Position numbers and translations under genes: made by a program. The notes beneath the pieces were generated by a model that saw nothing but the letters and a program-made list of their open reading frames with translations, made no database searches and was not told the origin of the DNA. From contig JANQSJ010000008.1 in the NCBI GenBank assembly GCA_028284065.1, positions 124,001 through 188,000 on the forward strand: a DNA stretch of 64,000 nt, written 5' to 3'. The stretch comes from Parvularculaceae bacterium. Its GTDB lineage: Bacteria > Pseudomonadota > Alphaproteobacteria > Caulobacterales > Parvularculaceae. Shown in pieces: positions 16,098-22,700 of this stretch. How positions within the stretch are numbered: position 1 is the first letter of the stretch; each line of letters begins with the position of its first letter.

Positions 16098-17885
16098 ATG
16101 ACCGACAGCTACGAAATAATCGACCACCAGTATGACGTCGTCGTCGTGGGCGCCGGCGGCGCAGGCCTGCGCGCTACGCTCGGCGCCGCGCAGGCCGGCC
16201 TCAAGACCGCCTGCGTCACCAAGGTCTTCCCGACGCGCTCGCACACCGTCGCCGCGCAGGGCGGCATCTCCGCGTCCCTCGGCAATATGGGCGAGGACGA
16301 CTGGCGCTGGCACATGTACGACACCGTCAAGGGCTCCGACTGGCTCGGCGACCAGGACGCGATCGAGTACCTCTGCAAAAACGCGCCCGCCGCCGTCTAC
16401 GAACTGGAGCACTGGGGCGTGCCGTTTTCGCGCACCGAGGACGGCAAGATTTACCAGCGCGCGTTCGGCGGCATGACCCGGAACTATGGCGAGGGTCAGG
16501 TGCAGCGCACCTGCGCCGCCGCCGACCGCACGGGCCACGCCATCCTGCACACGCTTTACGGCCAGTCGGTGAAGCAGAACGCGAAATTCTTCATCGAATA
16601 TTTCGCCCTCGACCTCATCATGTCCGAGGACGGAGAATGCCAGGGCGTCATGGTCTGGAAGCTCGATGACGGGACCATCCACCGCTTCGCCGCGAAGATG
16701 GTGATCCTCGCCACAGGCGGCTATGGCCGCGTCTATTTCTCCTGCACCTCCGCCCACACCTGCACCGGCGATGGCAACGCCATGGTGATGCGCGCCGGCC
16801 TGCCCTTGCAGGACATGGAGTTCGTGCAGTTCCACCCCACTGGCATTTACGGCGCCGGCGTCCTCATCACAGAGGGCGCGCGCGGCGAGGGCGGGTATCT
16901 GACGAATTCCGAAGGCGAGCGCTTCATGGAGCGCTATGCGCCGTCGGCCAAGGACCTCGCGTCGCGCGACGTCGTCTCCCGCTCCATGACCATGGAGATT
17001 CGCGACGGGCGCGGCGTCGGCGGGGACGGCGACCACATCCATCTGAACCTCAATCACCTTGACCCTGCGATCCTCGCCGAACGCCTGCCCGGCATTTCGG
17101 AGAGCGCGAAGATTTTCGCCGGCGTCGACGTGACGAAGGAGCCGATCCCCGTCATCCCCACCGTGCATTACAATATGGGCGGCATACCGACGAATTATTA
17201 CGGTGAAGTCGTCACCAAGAAGGGCGATGACCCGAACGCCGTCGTGCCCGGCCTCATGGCCATCGGCGAGGCGGCGTGCGTCTCCGTCCACGGCGCCAAC
17301 CGGCTCGGCTCCAACTCGCTCATCGATCTCGTCGTCTTCGGGCGCGCGGCGGGCCTTCGCTGCGGCGAGGTCGTCGACAAGGATGCGCCGATCCCGGAGC
17401 TTTCGAAAGACTCAGGGAGCGAAGCCCTCGCCCGGCTCGACCGCTTCCGCTACGCCACCGGCGGCACGCCGACGGCGGAGCTGCGCCTCAAAATGCAGAA
17501 GGTGATGCAGAACAATTGCGCCGTCTTCCGCACCGGCGAGGTTCTGGAGGAAGGCCAGAGCCTTATCGCCGATGTCTATTCGGGACTGCCGGACATCTCC
17601 GTCGCCGACCGGTCGATGATCTGGAACACCGACCTCGTCGAAACGCTGGAGTTCGACAATCTCATCGAGCAGGCGGTGGTGACGATGGAGTCGGCCGCCA
17701 ACCGCAAGGAAAGCCGCGGCGCGCACGCCCGCGAGGACTGTCCGGACCGGGACGACGAAAACTGGATGAAGCACACCATTTCCTGGTTCCAGAACGGCAA
17801 GGCCTCGCTCGACTATCGCCCGGTGCATGATTATACGTTGACGGACGAAATCTCCTACATCGAACCGAAAGCGCGGGTGTACTAG
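16098..17885 (+). CDS. sdhA: Succinate dehydrogenase flavoprotein subunit
   Basis: 595 residues, full length. The FAD Rossmann motif is [17 protein letters not shown] (about 16-32), the covalently flavinylated His lies in [10 protein letters not shown] (about 48-57), and substrate/catalytic segments [20 protein letters not shown] and [19 protein letters not shown] are intact. C-terminus ends [10 protein letters not shown] as usual. It oxidises succinate to fumarate and passes electrons to SdhB. Its TAG stop shares a CTAG with the stop of the convergent DUF998 gene. sdhB lies 4 kb farther on, unusually far. Confidence 0.98.
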
Positions 17886-18496
17886 CGGGACGTTCGGATC
17901 GAATAGACCCCAAGCGCGATCAGCCAGAGGCAAAGCGACAGAAGAAATCCGCGCTGATATAGCCCGATGAGCGGATGATCGAGACCCCCTGCGCCCATCA
18001 GACGAAACGACAGCCCCATGCCTGTCGCGGCCAAAAGCCCGGCCACAAGGGGAACGACGCGCCTCGCGCTCCATAGCGCCGAGACGCCGATCCATATGGC
18101 GCCGAAGAAGGCCAGAATAAACGCCGAGAACGCCGTCCAGTTATGGATGGCCTGAGACCGGCTTCCTTCAAACGGGCAGCCGGCGTCGCAGGGGTGGAGC
18201 CCCGCCGCAACGAATCCGGCGCCGGCAAGAACGAGCAGCGCGCCGCCGAGCACGGTGAGGCTTCCGTAGTGCGCGCGGACAAGAAAACCGAGCCCAAACA
18301 GAATGATCGCTGCGCCAAACGGGATGATTCCCGCGAGGTTCATAATCTCCGCGTAAGGCGCATTAATGGCCGCGAGTTCAGAGACAAACTGCCCTTTCGG
18401 GTCGTAACCCGGCGTCAGTTCGCCAATGACGATGATCATCGCGACGAAAAGGACTGCGCCAAGAACGGCGCTCCATCTTGATACGCTTGCGAACAC
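17882..18496 (-). CDS. DUF998 family membrane protein
   Basis: 204 residues from a GTG at 18496, preceded by AGGGAAGTGGG; the longer ATG frame (249 residues) begins with an implausibly basic stretch. Six hydrophobic helices, with the family segments [14 protein letters not shown] near residue 32 and [20 protein letters not shown] near residue 100 between helices; the latter is highly characteristic of DUF998. Function unknown. It lies between sdhA and the AlkB-like gene, on the opposite strand from sdh. Confidence 0.8.
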
Positions 18497-18614
18497 GTCG
18501 CGCCCACTTCCCTGATGCAATGCGACCCTAGGCCCGAACCGGCGACGCGCAAGGCGGCCCGTCCGGCGACAGCACCGCTTCGACGGAAAACGTTGGCGCC
18601 GCGCGAGCCCGCCG

Positions 18615-19202
18615 CTAGTTGAGCGGCCCATCGGCCGGGCGCATGGCGCCCTTTGAAACGCATGCGACGGTTCGGAACGTAATCGATACGCGCCGCCCCC
18701 GGCTCACCCGGCGCCCTTCAACAACATCGCTTTTGCGGGGCGCAATTCCATGGCGCCAGCGCCATCGGGCTTGTCCGGATAAGACAAGCAGACTTCTTGG
18801 CGGCAGCGACAGCTCCGTCCGGCGATCCGTTTCCGAATCGTCAAACGCCATCACAGTCGCCGACCCAAGACTCAAAGAGGCGACGACATCACCGAAGGCC
18901 GGGGAATCGACATGCGGCGCAATCCCCTGCCCCGGAAGGTATTCATTGACGATCGCCTGATCGAACTCGGCGCCAGCGATGACGTCGACGCGGATCACGA
19001 GGCCTTGAAGCCATGGCGGGAAAGGGCCCAGGAACGCTCCCTCGCCTACGCCGCGCTTTGAGTAGTCATAACGCCAACCGAAATGCCGCACACGCCGCTT
19101 CAGGGCGTCATCCCACTCGCCCGCGTTGGTTTCGCATAGGAGCGCGGTCTCTACCGATGGTGAAACAAAGTCCTCGATCAGCCGCAGGCCTTCTATAGTC
19201 AT
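18615..19202 (-). CDS. AlkB-family 2OG-Fe(II) dioxygenase, ALKBH8-like
   Basis: 195 residues from ATG 19202. All catalytic residues are visible: Fe ligands H97 and D99 in NEYLPGQGIAPHVD, distal H151 in WRWRHGI, and the 2-oxoglutarate arginines R171 and R177 in RRVSITFR. The pattern DQAIVNEYLPGQGIAPHVD followed by VASLSLGSATVMAFDD and PRSLLVLSGQARWRWRHGI is closer, from memory, to the AlkB domain of animal ALKBH8 (a tRNA wobble-uridine hydroxylase) than to E. coli AlkB. Its ATG overlaps the stop of the upstream BMT5-like methyltransferase gene (ATGA). Repair of alkylated nucleic acid is the default alternative; RNA uridine hydroxylation or demethylation is inferred. Confidence 0.88.
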   Translation of the reverse strand: MTIEGLRLIEDFVSPSVETALLCETNAGEWDDALKRRVRHFGWRYDYSKRGVGEGAFLGPFPPWLQGLVIRVDVIAGAEFDQAIVNEYLPGQGIAPHVDSPAFGDVVASLSLGSATVMAFDDSETDRRTELSLPPRSLLVLSGQARWRWRHGIAPRKSDVVEGRRVSRGRRVSITFRTVACVSKGAMRPADGPLN

Positions 19203-19978
19203 TGAATGGAACGTCCGGATTGATGATCGAAGCGATTCTTCGCGAAAACGCGCGTTACGAGAGGGAAACCGCAATTCAATAGGTCAACCCGCTGATTGAC
19301 ATTTGTTGTCACCTCATGGACGTAGCCAGGGTAGAGTCGAGGATCGAAGCTAAATTGGTTGATACACATCATTTTTGCGCGCCGCGCCGCTTCGACAAAA
19401 TCAAACCCACCGATGTAGTGAGGGCTTTCAATCGTGGTGACGGCAACGCGGCCATCGGGTTTTATAACATTTGTAGCACTACTCAAAAAAGACCGGATCA
19501 ACGTATGGTTAGGGTTTCTTCTATTTGCGACTGGCCTCAACCCGCTATGCGGAAATTGGAATACAACGAGATCGAATCTCCCGTCGCCGAATGATCTGAG
19601 GAGTCTTGTTGCGTCAACTCGAAATCTGACGCGAATGCCCCTAGCCACTAAGTCGGATACATTGCGACGTCCAAGTGAGCTCAGCGAAACATTTGAAGCG
19701 TCTGTGGAGGCGACGAAACGCCTAGCGTCAACATTCTCCATTCTCGCGAGCGCGAGTGTAAAACTGAAATTCCCTTCACCGACAAATAATGCGTTCTTGC
19801 CACTCAGCACCCTACCTAAGTGGATTTGTTTGCCTCCTCGGATTGGCTTTCTGAATTTTCTTGACCCGCAAGTTGTGACGCCCGCGCTTGGATCGCGCTC
19901 GAGCTCATGACGCCGCCCCACCGCCTTGGCCATCGCCTCCTCCAGCGTCCGTCCCCTGAACAATCCTTCGCGAACCAT
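19199..19978 (-). CDS. BMT5-like (DUF2431) Rossmann methyltransferase
   Basis: 259 residues. The C-terminal 200 residues match the BMT5-like/DUF2431 domain of eukaryotic 25S rRNA uridine-N3 methyltransferase: SAM-binding VGEGNFSF (66-73), VDATRL (121-126), FDLVVFQFPHSG (135-146), a SFLSSATNVIKPDGRVAVT segment (163-181) and FDPRLYPGYVHE (211-222), a near-diagnostic ending. The first 55 residues are basic, possibly for RNA contact, and open with MVREGLFRGRTLEEAMAKA. It is coupled by ATGA to the AlkB-like gene. The coding sequence is visibly poorer in GC than its surroundings, suggesting transfer. Target RNA in bacteria is unknown; uridine N3 methylation is inferred from the family. Confidence 0.85.
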   Translation of the reverse strand: MVREGLFRGRTLEEAMAKAVGRRHELERDPSAGVTTCGSRKFRKPIRGGKQIHLGRVLSGKNALFVGEGNFSFTLALARMENVDARRFVASTDASNVSLSSLGRRNVSDLVARGIRVRFRVDATRLLRSFGDGRFDLVVFQFPHSGLRPVANRRNPNHTLIRSFLSSATNVIKPDGRVAVTTIESPHYIGGFDFVEAARRAKMMCINQFSFDPRLYPGYVHEVTTNVNQRVDLLNCGFPLVTRVFAKNRFDHQSGRSIQ

Positions 19979-20056
19979 AGCTCTACTCCCTGGTTTACTC
20001 TTTAACTTCGCTCGTAGGGCGCCGCGCTGATTGACGGCCCCGTTTGAAAACTCTGT

Positions 20057-20234
20057 CCGTCGCCGCCCTCGAACATCGGGCGATAAATCCGCATTGCCTC
20101 ATCCTGAGGGGTTTTTCTCCTCGCCCTTCGGGACGCCAGCCTGACGGCTGGCTCCTCAGGATGAGGAGAAAAATCGTCTCGAAGGAGAGTGATGCAGATT
20201 TATCGCCCGAAGCTCCAGTCGACGGCGGTGACGG
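20057..20234. repeat. Nested inverted-repeat element
   Basis: Concentric inverted repeats: CCGTCGCCGCC (20057-20067) against GGCGGTGACGG (20224-20234); TCGGGCGATAAATCCGCAT (20076-20094) against a copy with one mismatch ending at about 20212; and a central CCTCATCCTGAGG / CCTCAGGATGAGG pair around 20097-20167. The central CTCATCCTGAGG palindrome is a known kind of alphaproteobacterial intergenic repeat. No coding content. Confidence 0.75.
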
Positions 20235-20427
20235 AAGGAGGATAAAGCCGCCCCGAAGGCGTTCGATGAGATTTTTGAAAATCGCCCTCAATCCCGCGCC
20301 GCGCCTGGGGTTCAGGCGTTCGATAAGAAATCGCCGGCGGCGTGGCCGCAACGCTTGGGAAAAGGTGGCGGGAGATACCGGCTCTCGTCCGCGGTTCGGC
20401 CGGGATGGCAGGACCGCCGTTCACCTG

Positions 20428-20466
20428 TCATCCCGGGCGCGCGGATGCGCGACCCGGGATCTCGGG
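20428..20466. repeat. Intergenic palindrome of the TCATCCCGGG type
   Basis: TCATCCCGGGCGCGCGGATG followed by CGCGACCCGGGATC forms an imperfect hairpin with arms CATCCCGGG/CCCGGGATC. Similar repeats are scattered in many alphaproteobacterial intergenic regions. The 593 bases between the BMT5-like gene and the isomerase gene (19979-20571) hold only this and the nested element. Confidence 0.6.
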
Positions 20467-20571
20467 AGTTGGGGCGCATGCGGCGCGATCGGCTGAACGG
20501 CGGAGGGTGCGCGCGGCCAGTGCGCGCGCCGTTCCGATGGGGCATAAGGGCGCGTGAGCCAAGGAGCCCGA

Positions 20572-21414
20572 ATGATGACCGACACCGCCTGCTTCACGCT
20601 GGAGATCGCCGACCATATTGCGCACCTGAGGCTCAACCGGCCGGAAAAGGCGAACTCGATGATCCCGGAGTTCTGGACCGAGTTCCCGGAGGCCATCGAC
20701 AAGATCTCCGCCGACGCCGATGCGCGCGTCATCGTCATCTCCGCCGAGGGCAAGCATTTCTGCTCCGGCATGGACATTTCGGTCTTTATGCAAGGCGCGC
20801 TCGACGCGGACGAGGCGAACCCCCACGTCTCGGCGGAGGCCTTCCGCCACAAGGTCCACGCGCTTCAGGAAACGTTTACGAGCCTTGAACGCGCGCGCCA
20901 GCCGGTGCTCATCGCCGCCCAAGGGGGCGTCGTCGGCGGCGCGGTGGACCTCGTCACCGCCGCGGACTGCCGCTACGCCAGCGAGGACGCGTTCTTCTGC
21001 ATCCAAGAGACGGCCATCGGCATGACCGCGGACGTCGGCACCTTCCCCCGCCTCGCCAAGGTCATACCCGAAGGCTGGGCGCGGCAGATGAGCTACACCG
21101 CAGAGCGGGTCCCTGCGGCGAAGGCGAAGGAGATCGGCCTCGTCAACGAGGTCTACCCGGACGCCGAGGCGCTGCTCGACGGGGTCATGGGCGTCGCGCG
21201 GAAGATCGCCGCGCACTCGCCCCTCGCCGTCACGGGCTGCAAGCGGATGATCACCTACGCTCGCGACCACACGACCTCAGACGCCCTCGATTATATCGGC
21301 GTTTGGAACGCGGGCATGCTGCGCCCTGAGGACATTCGCGAATCATATGTGGCGAAGAGCGAGGGCCGCGCGCCCGAATTCGCGCCGCTGAAGCGCCTGA
21401 AAGGCGGCCTTTAG
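20572..21414 (+). CDS. Delta3,5-delta2,4-dienoyl-CoA isomerase-like crotonase
   Basis: 280 residues from ATG 20572, which follows AAGGAG. It resembles ECH1, the dienoyl-CoA isomerase used in oxidation of odd-position unsaturated fatty acids: HFCSGMDISVF (oxyanion hole), GGAVDLVTAADCRYAS and FCIQETAIGMTADVGTFPRL carry the Asp, Glu and Asp that correspond to the ECH1 catalytic acids, and the C-terminal RDHTTSDALDYIGVWNAGML matches the ECH1 tail. Plain enoyl-CoA hydratase is the alternative. It lies between repeats and a small membrane gene inside the split sdh region. Confidence 0.87.
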   Translation: MMTDTACFTLEIADHIAHLRLNRPEKANSMIPEFWTEFPEAIDKISADADARVIVISAEGKHFCSGMDISVFMQGALDADEANPHVSAEAFRHKVHALQETFTSLERARQPVLIAAQGGVVGGAVDLVTAADCRYASEDAFFCIQETAIGMTADVGTFPRLAKVIPEGWARQMSYTAERVPAAKAKEIGLVNEVYPDAEALLDGVMGVARKIAAHSPLAVTGCKRMITYARDHTTSDALDYIGVWNAGMLRPEDIRESYVAKSEGRAPEFAPLKRLKGGL

Positions 21415-21549
21415 CGCGCCCTTGCCGCGCCCCCGCCCCCTCCGCCCGGACCTCTCGCGGCAATGGTTAATCGCAGAAACTGACCGCCGCGATTAACAGG
21501 GGCTTCAGGCTTTTGCGCAATTGTATGGCGTGCAGCCCAGGGGCGTTCC

Positions 21550-21813
21550 ATGAGCACCGTATTTGACGTCTTCGCCATGTGCCTGATCGTCGTCTCTCTG
21601 GCGATCTTCATCATCCGCTACATCCGAGAGGAACCGCCGATCCTGCCTTATCTCCTGATCGCCATCGCCTGCGGCGTCGGCAACTGGGTGGGCGAAGCGG
21701 TGGACGAATTCGCCGGGATCGTTGTCTTGATCATCGCGGCGTTCCTGTTCCTCAGCTGTTTCCTATATCCGGACATTTACTACCGGAAGCCCGAGCAGCC
21801 GGAATTCGAGTAG
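21550..21813 (+). CDS. Small three-helix membrane protein
   Basis: 87 residues, MSTVFDVFAMCLIVVSLAIFIIRY then a short loop with EEPPILPYLLIAIACGVGNWVGEA and a third helix, ending in an acidic tail. The layout (MxTVxDxx opening, a P-rich loop, GN in helix 2) resembles, from memory, small accessory proteins linked to exosortase (XrtV) systems in sphingomonads, but I would not name it on that alone. It sits 77 bases upstream of sdhB on the same strand and may share its promoter. Confidence 0.6.
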   Translation: MSTVFDVFAMCLIVVSLAIFIIRYIREEPPILPYLLIAIACGVGNWVGEAVDEFAGIVVLIIAAFLFLSCFLYPDIYYRKPEQPEFE

Positions 21814-21890
21814 CCCGCTGGCGCGGCGGACCGTCGCGGGCGGGGAATATTGCGCTGGCGCATTGCGCAGGCGCACACTAAATCCTCGCT

Positions 21891-22700
21891 ATGGTTCAGC
21901 TTACCCTCCCCGCAAACTCGAAGGTCCGTAAGGACGGCAAGACGTATCCGGCGAAAGCCGGCGCGGACGGGTCGTTCCGGCGCTTCAACGTCTACCGCTA
22001 CGATCCGGATGCGGGCGAGAACCCGCGCATCGATTCGTACGAGGTCGACGTCTCCGACGTCTCCATGGTGCTCGACGCGCTTATCAAGATCAAAAACGAG
22101 ACCGATCCGACCCTCACCTTCCGGCGGTCCTGCCGCGAGGGCGTGTGCGGCTCATGCGCGATGAACATCAATGGCGCGAACACGCTCGCCTGCACCAAGG
22201 GCATGGACGATCTCGGCGACGGCGACGTGGCGGTCTATCCGCTGCCGCACCAGCCGGTCGTAAAGGATCTCGTCACCGACCTGACGAAGTTCTACGAGCA
22301 GCACGCCTCCATCAATCCGTTTCTGCAATCCTCCGTTGCGGACGACGCGGCGGAAATCCCGCAATCGAAAGAGGAGCGGGAAAAGCTCGACGGTCTTTAC
22401 GAGTGCATTTTGTGCGCGTGCTGTTCGACCTCGTGTCCGTCCTACTGGTGGAATGGCGACAAGGACAATGGCGAGGAGTATCTCGGCCCAGCCGCGCTGC
22501 TTCAGGCGTATCGCTGGATCGCCGACAGCCGAGACGAGGAGCGCGAGAAGCGCCTCGACGCGCTTGAAGACCCGTTCAAGCTCTATCGCTGCCACACCAT
22601 CATGAATTGCGCGCAGGTCTGCCCGAAGAGCCTGAACCCGGCGAAGGCGATCGCCGAAATCCGTAAGCTGATGATTACGCGGCCGCGCAAGGCCGGATAG
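21891..22700 (+). CDS. sdhB: Succinate dehydrogenase iron-sulfur subunit
   Basis: 269 residues, full length. The 2Fe-2S site is in [22 protein letters not shown] (starting about residue 83; the last Cys is some 15 residues on) and the 4Fe-4S/3Fe-4S sites in [16 protein letters not shown] and [17 protein letters not shown]. It relays electrons from SdhA FAD to heme/quinone. An alphaproteobacterial N-terminal extension ([18 protein letters not shown]) is present. It is 4 kb from sdhA, with unrelated genes on both strands between, so it needs its own promoter. Confidence 0.98.

Follow-up and report, generated by a model that had tools for sequence, protein, structure and literature searches.

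A putative mobile toxin-antitoxin module pairing a BMT5-like methyltransferase with an ALKBH8-like dioxygenase in Alphaproteobacteria

Two coupled genes between sdhA and sdhB

The stretch analysed here (the window) comprises 64,000 nucleotides of contig JANQSJ010000008.1 (positions 124,001 to 188,000, assembly GCA_028284065.1) from a Parvularculaceae bacterium. Between its sdhA and sdhB genes lies a gene for a BMT5-like class I S-adenosylmethionine (SAM) methyltransferase, followed on the same strand by a gene for an AlkB-family dioxygenase that depends on 2-oxoglutarate (2OG) and Fe(II) (Table 1). Both open reading frames (ORFs), and the ATGA in which they overlap, stand where an earlier note made from the sequence alone had placed them, and the searches reported below bear out its assignment of the two proteins.

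The methyltransferase matches PF10354 with 103.5 bits (curated cut-off 24.7) over positions 1-167 of 168, a complete BMT5/DUF2431 domain. It carries the SAM motif VGEGNFSF (66-73), a motif IV-like FQFPH (140-144), N157 and Y219-x-H221; the GEGNxSF-type and FQFP motifs, N157 and Y219 are invariant or nearly so across 43 relatives. In its AlphaFold2 model (predicted local distance difference test, pLDDT, 82.8) the enzyme keeps an intact class I SAM fold, and the fold search with this model retrieved many SAM methyltransferases of that fold with Z of 12-14. These were generic class I enzymes only, giving no indication of the substrate, and a sequence search for a solved BMT5-like structure returned none. 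Searches of plasmids, phages and viral contigs with the window protein gave no close relatives.

The dioxygenase, encoded by the sole PF13532 gene in its genome, scores 79.1 bits against that family. Among solved structures, human ALKBH8 (3thp; phmmer, E 1.4e-21) is closest to it, and ALKBH6, ALKBH7 and the AlkB of E. coli (E about 0.006) rank behind. All iron and 2OG ligands are retained, with the iron triad HxD...H (H97/D99/H151) and the arginines R171 and R177 (Rx5R) invariant in 29 aligned relatives. The window protein consists of the AlkB domain alone. We rejected a role in DNA repair, since the repair-type AlkBs of E. coli and R. etli are remote in the tree, on branches of 8-10; the human sequences also lie on long branches and the base of the tree is poorly resolved, which leaves any kinship with eukaryotic ALKBH8 tentative. 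A more distant AlkB in Sphingobium sits among DNA-repair genes, unlike that of the window. Both window proteins occupy long branches in their respective trees, with all key residues retained.

The base composition of the methyltransferase gene clearly marks it as foreign, with a GC content of 51.5% and a GC content at third codon positions (GC3) of 53%, against a GC3 of 88% in sdhA and of 83-88% in sdhA, sdhB and the enoyl-CoA hydratase gene. The AlkB gene is less so (GC 62%, GC3 67%). The pair is missing downstream of sdhA in five relatives, within the stretch read, and in one of them (G008) sdhA and sdhB are directly adjacent with nothing between them. The horizontal entry into the sdh region proposed in the earlier note holds, and the lower GC content is real for the methyltransferase gene and mild for its partner. 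The content of the interval varies among the relatives read, which makes it a variable insertion site in this family; the DUF998 gene behind the pair belongs to the same variable stretch.

Table 1. Features of the window and of the other loci discussed in the text (positions within each stretch)
Feature	Location	Strand	Basis or remarks
5' leader of the module, Shine-Dalgarno-like AGGGAG ahead of the methyltransferase ATG	19979..20018	minus	Sequence; putative
BMT5-like class I SAM methyltransferase, 259 aa, proposed toxin	19199..19978	minus	PF10354 match, motifs, model
ATGA shared by the methyltransferase stop and the dioxygenase start, translational coupling	19199..19202	minus	Sequence
ALKBH8-like AlkB-family 2OG/Fe(II) dioxygenase, 195 aa, proposed antidote	18615..19202	minus	PF13532, PDB relative, residues
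DUF998 membrane protein gene, directly downstream of the pair, overlapping the AlkB end	17882-18631	minus	89 bits
Variable sdhA-sdhB interval	17885-21891		Comparison with relatives
Giant protein, 1306 aa	Microseira wollei (cyanobacterium)		eCIS core domain, then C-terminal BMT5-like domain
Giant protein, 1901 aa	Crossiella (actinomycete)		eCIS core domain, C-terminal BMT5-like domain
Giant protein	Gemmataceae bacterium		Pretoxin-HINT domain, then C-terminal BMT5-like domain
Methyltransferase-AlkB pair in two tandem copies	L061:838-4637		One Rhodobacteraceae contig
ALKBH8-like AlkB preceded by non-BMT5 methyltransferase	L149:3025-4549		Picosynechococcus pAQ5
ALKBH8-like AlkB preceded by non-BMT5 methyltransferase	L157:2368-3788		G657
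More distant AlkB between NADAR and macrodomain genes	L159:170-2006		G673, contig C17
ALKBH8-like AlkB at the C-terminus of a 748-aa fusion	L158:3995-6238		No other Pfam matches
Orphan ALKBH8-like AlkB immediately 3' of a cytochrome P450 gene	L155:2613-4564; L156		Two species of one genus
DUF488 gene overlapping the end of an orphan ALKBH8-like AlkB gene	L153:3540-3995

Pairing, spread and asymmetric loss

Sampling of whole genomes, together with a single scan across 84,980 species genomes, gave 68 deduplicated loci in Alphaproteobacteria in addition to the window. In 66 of them the methyltransferase has an AlkB of the same type downstream on its own strand, a proportion far above chance, and both exceptions are cut off by the end of the contig. 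The loci come from Rickettsiales, a Rickettsia endosymbiont, Rhodobacterales, Rhizobiales, Stappiaceae, Azospirillum, Micavibrio, Maricaulaceae, Robiginitomaculum and others. In 56 of 59 loci the junction measures between -41 and +61 bases, the 4-base overlap being the commonest (18/59). No third recurring gene of the module was found in Alphaproteobacteria, no other neighbour occurring in more than 4 of 62 loci. Across 55 loci, distances among the methyltransferases correlate with those among the AlkBs (Mantel r 0.83), so the genes travel together, and shared inheritance alone would also produce this. The methyltransferase and the AlkB form a real two-gene unit. None of the outcomes that the earlier note named as refuting its proposal arose: the PF10354 score is strong, the adjacency recurs in many genomes, and the repair-type AlkBs lie far from that of the window.

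Should the pair be a toxin and its antitoxin, the AlkB might act by binding the methyltransferase, leaving its product unoxidised. Most antitoxins work in this way, as do the SUKH immunity proteins described below, and the co-variation of the protein distances would fit, though shared ancestry suffices for it. On the other hand, the iron- and 2OG-binding residues, needless for a pure binder, are all invariant, which argues for chemistry over mere binding, and the same AlkB family is found with very divergent methyltransferases. We hold binding to be improbable.

The distribution of the pair is patchy and mobile. PF10354 occurs in only 8 of the 398 genomes of the order (2%), and in the class sample in 9 of 385 genomes above the cut-off, or 12 when weak hits are counted. 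On one Rhodobacteraceae contig the pair stands in two tandem copies (L061).

The two genes are not lost alike. Eleven alphaproteobacterial loci have a broken methyltransferase beside an intact AlkB and none has the reverse (sign test p = 0.001), in a search seeded with the methyltransferase and hence biased against detecting broken copies; one of these AlkBs belongs to a Rickettsia endosymbiont (L103). Contig ends excepted, no complete alphaproteobacterial methyltransferase without an AlkB was found. Conversely, of the 13 strong AlkB matches in the class sample, 6 lack a BMT5 partner within the sequence read; one of the six lies at a contig edge. The unpaired AlkB of Roseobacter denitrificans pTB4 nests within a clade of paired roseobacter sequences in the AlkB tree. 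A truncated methyltransferase upstream of this gene was considered and rejected, the neighbour there being an unrelated 153-aa protein.

At two loci, an AlkB of the same ALKBH8-like type is preceded by a methyltransferase that is not BMT5-like (L149, L157). These two methyltransferases match PADLOC C3a159, share 24% identity, and may represent a further methylating toxin with the same type of antidote. At L159 the neighbours of a more distant AlkB are a NADAR and a macrodomain gene; proteins of both kinds are erasers of ADP-ribose marks, and the three genes form a small cluster for the removal of marks. Other settings of ALKBH8-like AlkBs are listed in Table 1 (L153, L155, L156, L158).

A system of regulation or defence could also be imagined, in which a reversible methyl mark is placed on RNA or DNA, that of a phage for instance, while the AlkB keeps the molecules of the host free of it. 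The mobility and patchiness of the pair, and the PADLOC match of the alternative methyltransferase, would agree with this. However, the window proteins have no convincing match to a PADLOC defence model and defence genes do not recur beside the pair, so that we find this reading very improbable.

Giant toxins with the same domain and the proposed mechanism

In three non-proteobacterial loci, from three phyla, PF10354 is the last domain of a giant protein, two of which carry a core domain of the extracellular contractile injection system (eCIS) type and the third a pretoxin-HINT domain (Table 1). The Crossiella gene lies inside an eCIS cluster that also contains genes for Pvc16_N, CIS_tube and Baseplate_J proteins, along with an AAA ATPase-like ORF. 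Judged by these architectures, the three are injected or polymorphic toxins. In samples of Cyanobacteria, of the Crossiella order and of Planctomycetota, no further BMT5 toxins were found above the cut-off. Chromids of Pseudoalteromonas match the toxin domain of Microseira at about 30% identity.

Directly behind each of the three toxin genes stands a homologous gene for a protein of about 175 aa, overlapping the toxin gene by 4 bases in the Gemmataceae bacterium. Its AlphaFold2 model (pLDDT 72.6, built on three sequences only) matches members of the SUKH superfamily (B. subtilis YobK, SMI1/KNR4, yeast Knr4 and Syd) with Z from 9.9 to 5.2, the next being 3.5. Immunity to polymorphic toxins is classically the task of SUKH proteins, and we predict a SUKH fold and an immunity-like role for this product. 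A SUKH-like gene was not found in the alphaproteobacterial loci, except for one weak partial match, and none was found on plasmids. In two of the three cases, Microseira and Crossiella, the next gene after the SUKH-like one, on the opposite strand, is an AlkB of the family found in the window.

If the BMT5-like domain acts as a toxin in the giant proteins, the alphaproteobacterial pair resembles its stand-alone form, with the AlkB as antidote. We suggest, and consider it reasonably probable, that the pair is a mobile two-gene toxin-antitoxin module made of a toxin that methylates nucleic acid and an oxidative demethylase as its antidote; we infer both the toxicity and the demethylation. The methyltransferase would act on a nucleic acid that is essential to the cell producing it, most probably RNA, and its methylation would stop growth. 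The translationally coupled dioxygenase would recognise the marked nucleotide through its ALKBH8-type lid, which suggests an RNA substrate, and would remove or detoxify the methyl group by 2OG-dependent oxidation, reversing the mark as the macrodomain protein DarG reverses that of DarT. The methylated position is perhaps N3 of uridine, giving N3-methyluridine (m3U). This is a first guess by analogy with the yeast Bmt5, made also because AlkB enzymes can take N3-methyl off uracil and thymine. Whether modules of an RNA uridine methyltransferase toxin and an AlkB demethylase antitoxin form a class across Alphaproteobacteria, related to the eCIS and HINT toxins and giving the bacterial ALKBH8-like proteins their substrate, is in our view an evenly balanced question.

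A toxin and its antidote would be expected to show several of the features found. The toxin should never persist without the antidote, as in the 66 of 68 loci with exceptions at contig ends; the antidote may persist alone, like the six unpaired AlkBs of 13 and that of pTB4; the toxin should decay first, as in the 11 against 0 loci with a broken gene; and the spread should be patchy and mobile, the tandem duplication included. An ordinary RNA modification pathway predicts neither a lone AlkB, nor decay beginning with the methyltransferase, nor toxin fusions.

Some observations weigh on the other side. The eukaryotic Bmt5 is an ordinary rRNA enzyme, and the family is not always paired: in Gammaproteobacteria, Chlamydiae and Legionellales, PF10354 proteins stand alone with no AlkB. 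The toxin fusions are only three and already paired with a SUKH immunity-like protein; the AlkB beside two of them could be auxiliary or a chance neighbour. For three of the 11 methyltransferases counted as broken the case is borderline, with 84-88% of the domain left, and excluding them leaves 8 to 0. Many loci are metagenome bins. The gammaproteobacterial proteins (L041, L042, L114-L116) form a separate clade without AlkB, two of them (L041, L042) terminating in a C2H2-like zinc finger.

An alternative closer to the earlier note is a sequential RNA modification pathway in tRNA or rRNA, where a methylated uridine, or a methyl ester in the style of Trm9 and the ALKBH8 methyltransferase, would be hydroxylated by the AlkB into a stable hypermodified nucleoside. 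Its model is the conversion by ALKBH8, the hydroxylase of wobble 5-methoxycarbonylmethyluridine (mcm5U) in tRNA, of mcm5U into 5-methoxycarbonylhydroxymethyluridine (mchm5U). The coupling of the two genes, the ALKBH8-like lid and residues, and the presence of non-BMT5 methyltransferases ahead of this type of AlkB in Picosynechococcus pAQ5 and G657 are all compatible with such a pathway. Zdzalik et al. (2014, PMC4051686) also concluded that bacterial ALKBH8-like proteins modify an RNA substrate yet unidentified; in their work the proteins of R. denitrificans and Rickettsia felis had negligible or low repair activity and did not hydroxylate mcm5U. In the same study tRNA-Gly(UCC) was unaltered in an Agrobacterium ALKBH8 knock-out, which speaks against a pathway of this kind. 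Equally unexpected would be the patchiness, the loss of the first enzyme with the second kept, and the use of the domain in injected toxins that have an immunity-type gene beside them. We consider the pathway unlikely, and a toxin with its antidote is most likely the biology of the pair. From the module of uridine writer and eraser proposed in the earlier note, the writer and eraser chemistry may hold literally, whereas a role in modification is less likely in view of the toxin domain with its SUKH-like gene in three other phyla, the lack of whole alphaproteobacterial methyltransferases without an AlkB other than at a contig end, and the decay of the methyltransferase first.

The R. denitrificans protein of PMC4051686 is presumably, to judge by the species, the AlkB of pTB4. 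Its negligible repair and lack of mcm5U hydroxylation are expected if the true substrate is the mark of the partner, and we offer this methyl mark as a candidate substrate of the bacterial ALKBH8-like proteins. If so, the weak or absent activity of the tested proteins on DNA lesions and mcm5U would be explained, their substrate being the mark of a toxin encoded alongside or formerly guarded against.

Comparison with known systems

We found no published account of a methyltransferase-AlkB pair in the open-licence literature, in agreement with the earlier note. An eCIS toxin survey does not mention one, and the part of the 2012 polymorphic toxin survey (PMC3482391) drawn on here names no AlkB or methyltransferase toxin. 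If our reading is right, the pair would bring a new chemistry to bacterial conflict and a writer and eraser of a base mark that could be of use to RNA biologists. We know of no toxin-antitoxin or toxin-immunity system in which methylation is undone by oxidative demethylation.

The nearest parallel in logic is DarTG, an ADP-ribosylating toxin with a macrodomain eraser. In both systems, the toxin would put a covalent mark on nucleic acid and the antitoxin enzyme would remove it; DarTG does so by ADP-ribosylation and hydrolysis, while the pair would use SAM methylation and 2OG/Fe(II) oxidation, and there is no sequence relation between them. The more distant AlkB of L159, flanked by NADAR and macrodomain genes, adds to the parallel. 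With the eukaryotic Bmt5, the 25S rRNA m3U2634 methyltransferase, the window enzyme shares the full-length PF10354 domain; it differs in being bacterial, coupled to an AlkB and marked by the motif FQFP[HN]. The dioxygenase has the AlkB core with NEYLPGQGI..H.D in common with ALKBH8 and with the bacterial ALKBH8-like proteins of R. denitrificans and Rickettsia felis, but it lacks the RNA recognition motif (RRM), zinc finger and Trm9-like domain of ALKBH8 proper, and its partner is BMT5-like. Finally, the polymorphic toxin and eCIS payload systems carry the BMT5-like domain at the C-terminus in three phyla with a SUKH-fold neighbour, whereas the window methyltransferase stands alone, as does the alphaproteobacterial unit, without a trafficking or pretoxin domain, and an AlkB takes the place of the SUKH protein.
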